35,884 nucleotides of DNA from a bacterium. GTDB taxonomy: Bacteria > Patescibacteriota > Patescibacteriia > JACPHY01. The translations under genes and the position numbers were made by a program. Below the pieces are notes generated by a model. The model was given only the letters and a program-made list of their open reading frames with translations, did not search any database and was not told where the DNA came from. Where the stretch lies: NCBI GenBank assembly GCA_030647005.1, contig JAUSKG010000004.1, positions 1-35,884 of the forward strand, given 5' to 3'. Positions 28,296-33,301 of the stretch are shown here, one piece after another (position 1 is the stretch's first letter; each line of letters opens with the position of its first letter).

Positions 28296-28358
28296 ATTTG
28301 AGCGTGTAAAAAAGTAAAAAACTACCTCCCATGCTGTCATTGCGGGTTTGCGAAGTGG

Positions 28359-28400
28359 GGAAATGGGGTCAGGAAATGCGGAAATGGGGTCAAGTCCAAT
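28359..28400. repeat. Tandem half-arms of the MITE family and island edge
   Basis: GGAAATGGGGTCA occurs at 28359-28371 and 28380-28392, the second copy running on into AAGTCCAATTT. It is close to the arm of the 97-bp elements at 28946 and 29698. A TGTCATTGCGGG arm lies just upstream (28334-28345). Base composition drops sharply here, marking the left edge of the accessory region. Confidence 0.55.
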
Positions 28401-28438
28401 TTCTCCATCCAGGCATTCATTGTCACATTGTCTGTTGG

Positions 28439-28882
28439 TTAGATTTTTAGAAGATAGTCAGTAATCATTTTCCGTGCAGGAGGATTAAAACCACTATATG
28501 CTTCGCCGGCGATGTAGTCCTGAATTGAAACCCATTTCCATTCGGAAAATTTTTCTGGCTCCATGAGTTTTGCGTCCTGCTTCGTTGTGCAATAAAACAT
28601 AAGAACTACATCACCCTCTTTTGCGCCAGGCACTTCGCCAATAAAATCCAAAATATTCAAATCTGTGATATCAACTTCTTCAGCAACCTCTCGTCGGAGA
28701 GTTTGTTCAACTGTCTCTCCGATATCAGAGCGACCACCTGGAATTGTCCATACTGATATTTTCTTCCACTTATCTGGCGTATAATGACGATGACCAGTTA
28801 GAACTTTGCCGTCTTTCACAACGACTGCAATTGGACATGTTATTCCGTCTCCTTGTTTGATAAGTTGATTTTGCATAATCAT
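28439..28882 (-). CDS. Nudix hydrolase, island copy
   Basis: A 147-residue protein with the Nudix box GGRSDIGETVEQTLRREVAEE followed by VDI; the usual final Gly is Asp, while the Glu and Arg residues needed for metal binding are kept. ISVWTIPGG before the box is typical. The substrate is unknown. It is AT-rich compared with the backbone. Its ATG overlaps the TGA of a truncated Xre-type regulator, so it was once the second gene of a regulator-Nudix pair. ATG 28875 is an alternative start. Confidence 0.88.
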   Translation of the reverse strand: MIMQNQLIKQGDGITCPIAVVVKDGKVLTGHRHYTPDKWKKISVWTIPGGRSDIGETVEQTLRREVAEEVDITDLNILDFIGEVPGAKEGDVVLMFYCTTKQDAKLMEPEKFSEWKWVSIQDYIAGEAYSGFNPPARKMITDYLLKI

Positions 28883-28945: not shown

Positions 28946-29042
28946 GAGAATAAAGGGGTCAAGTCCATTTTCCACTCGATCACTTCGTGTTCCTTATAGC
29001 CATCATCGCGTCATCGTCAAAGAAATGGACTTGACCCCTTTA
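28946..29042. mobile_element. 97-bp MITE-like element, left copy
   Basis: It matches 29698-29794 at 96 of 97 positions (T/C difference near 28994). Inside, perfect 20-bp terminal inverted repeats (28951-28970 and 29023-29042) share the core GGGGTCAAGTCC. It is too short to code for a transposase. The GGGGTCAAGTCC core resembles repeats tied to IS200-like/RAYT transposases, but no such gene is here. Confidence 0.8.
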
Positions 29043-29094
29043 CTTATGTTTACTATGTATAGCAATTTATAGAGAACGTAGATAGACGGTCAGA

Positions 29095-29625
29095 TCACTT
29101 TTTTGAGCGTGTCCCAAGTAGATTTTGGATAATAACCTGCGCCTGTTTGAGTCTGAGATTAACCAAAACCGAAGAAACTTCTCCGACATCTTGATATAGG
29201 TTATTAGCGACATCCTTCAGGCTCAGGTTTGGGTTATACTTAAATTTCTTTTGAAACTTTCGTATGATGGCCGCACGCTTTTTATAAAACTGTTCTCCAC
29301 TCTTTTTCTTAATAAACACTCTCCAGTCTCCGAAATGTTTTTCCTTGTTGCACCGCTGACAGCAAGGAACGATATTGCCCCAAGCATGGAGGCCAAGTGC
29401 AGTTTTGTTTATTGGTACAAGATGATCGTTAGTTACGTTATCTTCAGTTAGTGCGACACCACAATAACAGCACGAGTTAGAGAACAGTGCTAAAACTTCC
29501 TTCCACTCTGTGCTTTTCGTATTGAATTTTTTGAAACCCCGAGCTTCATCATAAAATGATCCGGCTTCTTGCAAGAGCATCCGTATTGCTGAATTAGATA
29601 TGTCGGATTTTGATTTTGTGCCCAT
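29095..29625 (-). CDS. HNH endonuclease between two MITE copies
   Basis: A 176-residue AT-rich gene. The HNH core spans about 60-110: CCYCG, then NDHLVPINKTALGLHAWGN and VPCCQRCNKEKHFGDW. The two CxxC pairs bind a structural zinc, and His in DHL plus Asn in GN are the catalytic candidates. The rest is basic (KKKSGEQFYKKR), as expected for a DNA binder. I start at ATG 29625; the frame runs on upstream but is not HNH-like. Both flanks carry the same 97-bp repeat, so the gene may move as a cassette. Its target is unknown; restriction, homing or anti-phage roles are all possible. Confidence 0.82.
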   Translation of the reverse strand: MGTKSKSDISNSAIRMLLQEAGSFYDEARGFKKFNTKSTEWKEVLALFSNSCCYCGVALTEDNVTNDHLVPINKTALGLHAWGNIVPCCQRCNKEKHFGDWRVFIKKKSGEQFYKKRAAIIRKFQKKFKYNPNLSLKDVANNLYQDVGEVSSVLVNLRLKQAQVIIQNLLGTRSKK

Positions 29626-29697
29626 ATGGTAATTATGACGCTTTCTGGTCTTCCACGATAATGCGCTGACTAGTCCGGCAGGATTCAAATTTGTTTA

Positions 29698-29794
29698 GAG
29701 AATAAAGGGGTCAAGTCCATTTTCCACTCGATCACTTCGTGTTCCCTATAGCCATCATCGCGTCATCGTCAAAGAAATGGACTTGACCCCTTTA
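29698..29794. mobile_element. 97-bp MITE-like element, right copy
   Basis: Same unit and same orientation as 28946-29042, with its own perfect 20-bp inverted arms at 29703-29722 and 29775-29794. Together the two copies make a direct repeat around the HNH gene. Confidence 0.8.
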
Positions 29795-29850
29795 TCTGAC
29801 CCTTTACTTATGACCCCTTTACTTAAAGAAATGGACTTGACCCCTTTACC
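29795..29850. repeat. String of MITE arm fragments
   Basis: Right after the second copy, TGACCC(C)TTTAC is repeated at about 29797, 29811 and 29837, the last as a full arm AAATGGACTTGACCCC. These look like partial copies left by slippage or repeated insertion at one site. Confidence 0.6.
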
Positions 29851-30980: not shown

Positions 30981-31016
30981 ACAGGACTTGACAACCCTAG
31001 AATGATCCTGTATGAT
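30981..31016 (+). promoter_or_regulatory. Transposon promoter with flanking palindrome, probably leaderless
   Basis: TTGACA (30988-30993), 17-bp spacer and TATGAT (31011-31016) form a near-consensus promoter. The -10 ends eight bases before the transposase ATG (31025), so the mRNA should start at or beside that ATG. ACAGGA (30981-30986) and TCCTGT (31006-31011) form an inverted pair around it, a possible operator. Confidence 0.8.
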
Positions 31017-31024
31017 GGGTATAT

Positions 31025-31951
31025 ATGGTGAAACCCGCCCAATTCAGTACACTCTTGGAGTTTTTGACCAACTTCAAGGACGAGGAGAAATGCCGCCAAT
31101 ACTTTGAGCAAATCCGCTTCAAGGATGGCGACTATTGCCCGCATTGCGCCCACGGCAAGATCAACCGCTTTGCGGATGGGAAGCGATACCGCTGCGCGAA
31201 GTGTCGAAAGGACTTCACCATCAAGACGGGCACCGTTTTTGGTGAGAGTAAAATCTCGCTGCAAAAGTGGTTCATTGCGATCTATCTCCTCACTACGTCT
31301 CCTAAGGGCATCTCGTCCGTGCAGCTCGCAAAGCAGTTGGGCGTGACGCAAAAGACGGCGTGGTTCATGGATCATCGTATCCGTAAGGCGATGAAGAACG
31401 GCGGCAAGCTGTTTGGCAATGTCGAGGTGGATGAAACGTACATCGGCGGCAAGGAAAAGAACAAGCACGCATCGAAACGGACAAAGGGTGTGCAGGGACG
31501 TTCGCTGAAAACAAAGAACGCTGTTATGGGCATGGTGGTACGCAATGGCAACGTCATTGCGTCCGTCATTCCAAATGCGAAAATGCGAACGCTCGAAAGT
31601 AAGATCGTCGCACACATTGACATTGGTTCCACGCTCTATACCGATGAACTCATGTCGTACTCGAAAATCGGATCGCTCTACAAGCATGAAGCGGTCAATC
31701 ACAGCAGCGGCGAATACGTCCGAGGCGATGCACACACAAATAACGTCGAGAGTTTTTGGGCATTGTTCAAGCGCGGGTATCACGGCACCTATCACACCAT
31801 GTCGGGCAAGCATCTCCAGCGGTATGTGGACGAGTTTGCTTTCCGATGGAACGAGCGGAATACCCCAATGGATAGTATCTTTGCCAATACGGTGGAAAGC
31901 GTCGCGGAGACAAAAACGCTACACTATAAGAAGCTCACCGCAACCGTATGA
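31025..31951 (+). CDS. IS1595-family (ISXO2-like) DDE transposase
   Basis: A 308-residue transposase. An N-terminal zinc ribbon (C38, C41, C57, C60) is followed by a helix-turn-helix (SSVQLAKQLGVTQKTAWFMDHRIR) and the catalytic core: VDETYIGG (D136), YTDEL (D207) and HTNNVESFW (E242), then KRGYHGTYHTMSGKHLQRYVDEF. All key residues are present, so it should be active. Its stop overlaps the methyltransferase start (ATGA), which suggests coupled translation. Confidence 0.95.
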   Translation: MVKPAQFSTLLEFLTNFKDEEKCRQYFEQIRFKDGDYCPHCAHGKINRFADGKRYRCAKCRKDFTIKTGTVFGESKISLQKWFIAIYLLTTSPKGISSVQLAKQLGVTQKTAWFMDHRIRKAMKNGGKLFGNVEVDETYIGGKEKNKHASKRTKGVQGRSLKTKNAVMGMVVRNGNVIASVIPNAKMRTLESKIVAHIDIGSTLYTDELMSYSKIGSLYKHEAVNHSSGEYVRGDAHTNNVESFWALFKRGYHGTYHTMSGKHLQRYVDEFAFRWNERNTPMDSIFANTVESVAETKTLHYKKLTATV

Positions 31952-32832
31952 GCCGTCCACCGCAAATCTTCCACCCTCCCATTTCCGCAGGTTTTGACGA
32001 GGTGCTTGGAGCCATTGCGAATGAGCAGCGACCACAGGCACGGAGCGTACCCGCTAAGCCGTTTGTCAAGTGGGTAGGCGGCAAGCGTTCTATTCTCCCG
32101 CTCCTCATGGAGCGATTGCCGAAGGAGTACACCGCATACCATGAGCCGTTTGCTGGTGGCGGTGCGTTGTACTTTGCGCTGCAACCGCAACGGGCGACGC
32201 TCTCGGATGTCAATTTGCATCTCGTCCTAACGTACATTGCCATTCGGGACGACGTGGAACGATTGATCACGCTCTTGCGCGAACACACGCAGAAGCACGG
32301 CAAGACATACTATCTCAAGGCGCGGAAACGCCTCTCTACGGAAGAGGACGGAACGGTCATTGCGTCGCTATTCATCTACATCAACAAGACGTGTTTCAAT
32401 GGCCTCTACCGCGTTAATAAGGATGGCGCGTTCAATGTTCCGATGGGCAAGTACACCAACCCGCCCATCCTTGACGAGGACACATTGCGAGCGGATCATG
32501 CAGTGCTGCAAGGCACGAAAATCGTTTGCCAATCGTTTTCATCCATTCGCCCAAAACAACAGGCGTTCTACTACCTCGATCCGCCGTATCACGCGACGTA
32601 TGACGGCTACAACGGGAGTGGTTTCAATGATGATAAGCACCGCGAACTTGCCGCCATGTGCAGAAAGATAGACGAGAAGGGCGGGTACTTTATGCTCTCA
32701 AACTCCGATACTCCCTTTGTGCGCGACCTCTACCGCGCATACACCATCGAACGGGTGGAAGCATCTCGCTCCGTGTCATGTAAGGCGCATCAGCGCGGCA
32801 AAGAACATGAACTCATCATCAGGAACTACTAG
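31948..32832 (+). CDS. Dam-like (D12 class) DNA adenine-N6 methyltransferase
   Basis: A 294-residue enzyme with KWVGGKR (41-47), the SAM motif HEPFAGGGAL (65-74), the Dam-typical FNGLYRVNKDGAFNVPMGKY (150-169) and the catalytic DPPY (211-214), followed by LSNSD. It closely follows the Dam/DpnM plan, so GATC is the likely target, but specificity must be tested. About 35 extra residues precede the usual N-terminus. It would protect host DNA from the nuclease encoded next. Confidence 0.93.
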   Translation: MSRPPQIFHPPISAGFDEVLGAIANEQRPQARSVPAKPFVKWVGGKRSILPLLMERLPKEYTAYHEPFAGGGALYFALQPQRATLSDVNLHLVLTYIAIRDDVERLITLLREHTQKHGKTYYLKARKRLSTEEDGTVIASLFIYINKTCFNGLYRVNKDGAFNVPMGKYTNPPILDEDTLRADHAVLQGTKIVCQSFSSIRPKQQAFYYLDPPYHATYDGYNGSGFNDDKHRELAAMCRKIDEKGGYFMLSNSDTPFVRDLYRAYTIERVEASRSVSCKAHQRGKEHELIIRNY

Positions 32833-33301
32833 CGGCGGCGGACGCGCTAACAAGACGGGCAATAGCTTGGAGCAGTTTGTCGAGCACAAGCTCAAAGAGC
32901 ATGGCTACACGGAGTTTTGGGATCACAAAAGACAGGTGTTTGCGAACAGGACGACGATAGGAGGCAAGCAGTACGGGAAGCAAATCTATTGCGGCAAAAG
33001 CATCTACGAGACGGATCGCAAATGCGACTTCCTCGTGCTCAATCAAGAGAAGTGGCCAGACGGCCTCATCATCGAGTGTAAGTGGCAACAGTCCAGTGGC
33101 TCCGTGGATGAAAAGTACCCGTTTGCATTTTTCAACATCTGTAAAATAGGCGTGCCGACCGTTGTTCTCCTAGATGGCAATGGATATAAACCCGCTGCCA
33201 TGCGGTGGCTCAAGGAGCAGGCGCATCCGCAGAGAGCACTCATCGCCGTATACAACATGGTGGAGTTTCAGACAGCGGTCAATAATGGTTTTCTTGGTTA
33301 G
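32807..33301 (+). CDS. PD-(D/E)XK nuclease, probable restriction partner
   Basis: A 164-residue protein. After a Gly/Ser-rich start, ANKTGNSLEQFVEHKL gives the first helix with E23, CDFLVL supplies D74, and LIIECKWQ supplies E90 and K92, a complete PD-(D/E)XK site. PTVVLLDGNGY is a further strand. ATG 32807 lies 26 bases inside the methyltransferase gene, so the two are translated from one message. It is most likely the restriction half; homology to a characterised enzyme was not recognised. Its TAG lies in the right transposon end. Confidence 0.82.
   Translation: MNSSSGTTSGGGRANKTGNSLEQFVEHKLKEHGYTEFWDHKRQVFANRTTIGGKQYGKQIYCGKSIYETDRKCDFLVLNQEKWPDGLIIECKWQQSSGSVDEKYPFAFFNICKIGVPTVVLLDGNGYKPAAMRWLKEQAHPQRALIAVYNMVEFQTAVNNGFLG

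Follow-up and report, generated by a model that had tools for sequence, protein, structure and literature searches.

A direct pair of REPIN-like mini-elements, probably of RAYT origin, frames an HNH endonuclease gene in a member of the Patescibacteriota

The window, that is, the whole 35,884-nt stretch of DNA that was analysed (contig JAUSKG010000004.1 of assembly GCA_030647005.1, here contig C4 of genome G000), contains an island in which small genes alternate with short repeats. The following features of this island are needed for what follows:

about 28334-28405, unstranded: older REP singlet of a second family, recognised by comparison with the RAYT element of the sister species
28439-28882, minus strand: NUDIX hydrolase gene of 40% GC, lying between REPs of two families
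28946-29042, unstranded: unit a, a REP-doublet mini-element with a 52-nt spacer between two inverted 20-bp REPs
29095-29688, minus strand: HNH endonuclease gene; 197 aa if read from the TTG at 29688, with an ATG at 29625 as the likelier start
29698-29794, unstranded: unit b, a REP-doublet mini-element in the orientation of unit a, with 1 mismatch to it
29825-29848, minus strand: REP singlet (half-copy), the third and partial copy in the window
31025-31951: IS1595 transposase gene, with a copy of the core GTCAAGTCC just upstream (30984-30992)

Units a and b form a direct repeat of 97 nt with an identity of 96/97, and both have perfect inverted ends, of 20 bp in unit a (28951-28970 / 29023-29042) and of 21 bp in unit b (29702-29722 / 29775-29795). 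Since the inverted repeat of unit a starts at 28951, its left end has five extra outer bases (GAGAA). Folded as single-strand DNA, the unit is predicted to form a long hairpin with a 20-bp stem (z = -7.3; none of 200 shuffled sequences did as well). For the 9-mer core GTCAAGTCC, 7 occurrences were counted in the window where 0.29 would be expected, and the REP ends of the window family read TAAAGGGG, in which the GTAG/CGTC tag is absent. A single REP of this family is predicted to fold weakly (-0.9 kcal/mol), compared with -4.9 kcal/mol for the sister-species family and -4.0 kcal/mol for the second family of the own genome. REPs lie in consecutive gaps of the island, the order being a 551-aa gene, a REP, the NUDIX gene, a unit, the HNH gene, and a unit followed by a REP; just before the half-copy at its end, at about 29797-29825, the outer half of the REP is repeated in incomplete tandem pieces. 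Such short tandem pieces were seen beside many REPs in both species (L037, 4018-4080; L038, 3815-3960; L050, 2797-2830; and the window, 29797-29825), and look as if they came from slippage or repeated insertion.

The first-pass annotation had described two direct 97-bp copies with perfect inverted ends and a one-base difference around a single AT-rich HNH gene, and this description was borne out. It had not mentioned the half-copy at 29825-29848, the tandem pieces before it, or the second-family REP at about 28334-28405. The HNH frame is the only one between the two units, its GC content is 40.9% vs 62.4% for window positions 1-28340, and its product matches Pfam HNH_5 and HNH above their cut-offs (PF14279, 28.1 bits; PF01844, 23.4 bits). 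It is an acquired gene, one of several such genes in the island. Assignment to a known defence family, including PtuB/retron effectors, was rejected, as the matches were merely weak ones to the HNH core and all stayed under the NCBIfam cut-offs (PtuB, 17.7 bits vs 150; TIGR02646, 27.3 vs 52.15; IscB also below). Searches of plasmids and phages returned only distant HNH relatives of 28-40% identity, and viral contigs gave no match to the REP, the HNH protein or the RAYT. Further along the window, a Dam-type methylase gene followed by a PDDEXK_11/DpnII-like nuclease gene (31948-33301) lies beside the IS1595 transposase gene; the two are probably a restriction-modification pair.

In the 1.06-Mb genome, all 14 exact copies of the 16-base core are at three loci (C4, the window; C31; and C21), and a search with the 97-bp sequence found full and partial units, five of them full, at these loci only. 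The REP cores are extragenic, and dispersed high copy number was not seen. Each locus has a same-orientation pair about 0.7 kb apart around one small gene, encoding the HNH protein, a DUF5680 protein and a 153-aa orphan, respectively, with spacings of 752, 742 and 691-759. At C31, the pair 742 bp apart frames the DUF5680 gene, and at C21 the orphan gene is framed by two half-units and one full unit. Thus, the repeat, which might have proved widespread with no cargo pattern, is confined to three loci and frames one gene at each, two of them in addition to the locus first noticed. Most of the framed or adjacent genes are AT-rich (HNH 41%, DUF5680 41%, 101 aa 39%, 218 aa 28%; surroundings 62-66%), which marks two of the three enclosed genes as clearly foreign, but the orphan gene at C21 has 59% GC, so that not every framed gene is clearly foreign. 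The spacer of unit a is akin to those of the C21 and C31 units, and an alignment with MAFFT revealed an 8-bp spacer insertion common to units a and b and present in no other unit. In contrast, one of the C31 units is 97% identical to a C21 unit and only 78% identical in the spacer to its own partner; the idea that the pairs are simple local duplicates at every locus therefore holds for C4 and fails for C31. No target-site duplication of 4-9 bp was detected at the five units, where only a 4-base chance match at offset 9 was seen, nor was a target duplication found flanking any composite pair, and a second copy of any unit-gene-unit block was not found. The earlier suggestion that the HNH enzyme cuts the target on behalf of the element found no support, the DUF5680 and 153-aa proteins matching no nuclease family.

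The link to a transposase comes from the sister species (G001), the one further species of the genus that the searches turned up. It carries an intact 228-aa transposase gene between inverted REPs with the same core (GGGGTCAAGTCC, AAATGGGGTCAAGTCCCATTT). The flanking REPs read AAATGGGG-TCAAG-TCCCATTT, and the right one overlaps the stop codon of the RAYT gene. The protein matches Pfam Y1_Tnp with 51.5 bits (cut-off 23) and NCBIfam REP_Tyr_transpos with 71.9 bits, just under the cut-off of 80. The second-family REP at 28334-28405 in the window matches the right end of this element over 73 bp with 82% identity. Separate REPs of G001 contain fragments of the RAYT 3' end (147 bp at 98%, 120 bp at 85% and 49 bp at 90% identity). 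Read in frame from one REP, the spacer of the window family translates as FFDDDGYREHEVIE, with a stop codon beside the other REP in three of seven units (C21c, C31a and C31b); in the C4 units this frame is broken by their private 8-bp insertion. By analogy with the fragments in G001, the spacer of the window unit may have come from the 3' end of another RAYT that has since been lost. A gene containing the spacer peptide was not found at a convincing E-value in 380 genomes of the class and 379 of the phylum, the search yielding three outside matches with E-values of 0.1-0.3, and it is for this reason that we infer the partner transposase of the window unit.

The search for a RAYT/IS200-like transposase elsewhere in the own genome returned three Y1_Tnp genes, none of them flanked by the window REP, in an assembly that is 98% complete in 35 contigs. 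One of them, on C20, is a related RAYT truncated between REPs of the second family (ATCGTGTCAAGTCC); at this locus (L039, G000:C20, 1236-3842) the two REPs have the same orientation, two paralogous lipoprotein-like genes flank the truncated gene, and coding sequence nearby appears duplicated. A RAYT gene of a second kind was observed on C10 (L040, G000:C10, 667-1341). It has a 23-nt palindrome of its own, TGTCCAACACTTAGTGTTGGACA, which is found at about 837, within the reading frame, and again at about 1328, at the stop codon, with a variant upstream. Scanning genome contigs with a 19-mer of the REP gave two outside matches. A gammaproteobacterial contig has the same kind of REP in several copies, which suggests a REP type shared by distant bacteria; the copies (L069, 1500-2470), with almost the same sequence (AAAGGGGTCARGTCCATTTTTC), are found in either orientation. 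The other match, from Saprospiraceae, was discarded as a lone copy inside an apparent coding region.

The location of REP clusters was compared between the two species by seeking in G001 the orthologs of own-genome genes that lie beside REP clusters at three loci. Orthologs were found for two of the three loci (ftsX with tRNA-Gln, and a P-type ATPase), both within about 3 kb of REP clusters in G001. The gene of the third locus, left of the window island, had no ortholog in G001 and, in G002, one of just 39% identity. A third coincidence of REP clusters between the species, beside dus, was met by chance. The genes between the clusters differ between the own genome and G001, and neither the HNH gene nor the 153-aa gene has a copy in G001 or G002. 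With two species compared and their synteny patchy, the matching clusters at orthologous genes suggest, but do not prove, that REP clusters mark shared variable sites. On C18 of G001, REPs occupy four or more successive gaps, and REPs stand between several adjacent genes of this species, some of them unremarkable in GC content. G001 also has a tandem duplication of a micro-gene of some 50 codons, in which a REP lies between the copies (L050, 4892-5262).

Among known systems, REPINs and their RAYTs (Bertels and Rainey 2011, PMC3116915; Nunvar et al. 2010, PMC2817692) are alike in their inverted REPs with a spacer and their long single-strand hairpin, and share with the window element the extragenic location, the lack of target duplication, the RAYT flanked by the REP core (in the sister species) and the REP clusters between adjacent genes. 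The window element differs in its very low copy number (5 full units at 3 loci), in its conserved coding-like spacer, and in having neither the GTAG/CGTC tag nor a matching RAYT in the genome. These tags mark most known REPs (PMC3733652), and not all of the REPs listed in PMC2817692 have them. Given that the structure is that of a REPIN and that copy number, tag and cognate RAYT are not, we call the element REPIN-like and do not file it as a REPIN.

BIMEs lie within one intergenic gap, unlike the REPs of the window, and to our knowledge have not been noted for framing single acquired genes. They are alike in being REP mosaics in both orientations with partial tandem pieces (PMC2817692).

We consider it probable that the repeat is a REPIN-like REP-doublet that stems from a RAYT element and accumulates in islands of foreign genes, and that the near-identical pair of the window was made locally. 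The 97-bp unit would be a non-autonomous REP-doublet derived from a REP-associated tyrosine transposase element, and an IS200-like Y1 transposase would move it, or would once have moved it, in trans as a hairpin-ended single strand. The unit's own transposase, now missing from the assembly, would have been a RAYT ending in FFDDDGYREHEVIE between GGGGTCAAGTCCATTT ends. REP elements and their relatives would build up between the genes of a few variable islands, where foreign genes also collect, and single genes would thereby come to be enclosed by two copies. In the window, a short hop of the first copy, or else gene conversion or recombination, may have given rise to the second; the near identity of the C4 units and their private insertion suggest that one was made from the other at that site. 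The lack of a target duplication argues against a DDE or Tn3 origin and fits an IS200-like one: elements of the IS200/IS605 family insert without larger target duplications (PMC2817692). The proposal in the first-pass annotation of a MITE-like unit served in trans by a transposase of the RAYT/IS200 kind is thus probably right, the core of the unit flanking an intact RAYT in G001. A counterpoint to scattered insertion is that all pairs have the same orientation, about 0.75 kb apart, at three loci, a greater regularity than such insertion would lead one to expect.

In a rival reading, a resident unit would have taken up, through homologous recombination, a circle with one unit and the HNH gene, and the resulting pair could later excise the gene. 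Two near-identical units sharing a private 8-bp insertion are exactly the product expected from such an event, the orientation is direct at all three loci, the cargo has a foreign base composition, and there is a precedent in the directly oriented structures bounded by MITESen1 (PMC13367494). However, 97 bp is short for RecA, the spacers of the C31 units share only about 78% identity, one of these units being 97% identical to a C21 unit, and neither a circle nor an empty site was seen. Direct pairs could allow circle-type exchange, but as the origin of the window pair we regard it as unlikely. The comparison with TIME-COMPs (PMC4133298, PMC13367494) bears on the same point: these also consist of two transposase-less mini-elements around a passenger gene, an arrangement found here at three loci, and their directly oriented cases are explained by circle integration (PMC13367494). 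They differ in that they derive from Tn3, have 5-bp duplications, and can be traced as transposing in one block; for the window pair there is no duplication and no movement was traced.

The proposal that RAYT-derived REP-doublets bound exchangeable single-gene cassettes, gained and lost without an integrase through recombination or a Y1 transposase acting at the repeats, is in our view unlikely. Composite transposition, in which a Y1 transposase supplied in trans would act on the outermost ends of a pair of units and take the enclosed gene along as a single-gene cassette, appears quite improbable. Each of the three loci has a single gene per pair, the lengths are similar (752, 742, 691-759), and G001 has similar single-gene arrays between REPs, but no cassette was found at two places, the inner ends would compete with the outer ones, some genes are bounded by REPs of different families, and singlets and tandems are common. 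Indeed, with REPs occurring as singlets, tandems and doublets in successive gaps, the NUDIX gene too lies between REPs. For the composite unit of the first-pass annotation, neither a flanking duplication nor a second block was found; with the HNH gene and the 153-aa gene both absent from G001 and G002, their movement is not traceable, and movement of gene and repeats as one unit is possible but unproven. An origin of the unit as a MITE from an IS1595- or Tn3-like DDE element is highly improbable: the IS1595 gene is nearby with one core copy beside it, and Tn3 ends also begin GGGG, but no unit has a target duplication, inverted ends sought around the IS1595 gene were not found, and the core flanks a RAYT in G001.

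RAYTs and REPs are usually described as mobilising only themselves. REP-doublets at sites of single foreign genes, some of these sites being shared with the sister species, would make RAYT-aided gene capture testable in this genus. Bertels and Rainey speculated that REPINs incorporating useful DNA might be favoured (PMC3116915), and exchangeable cassettes, if the idea is true, would go beyond that speculation. At the least, RAYT-linked REP families with the core GTCAAGTCC exist in this genus, and a similar REP occurs in a gammaproteobacterial contig.
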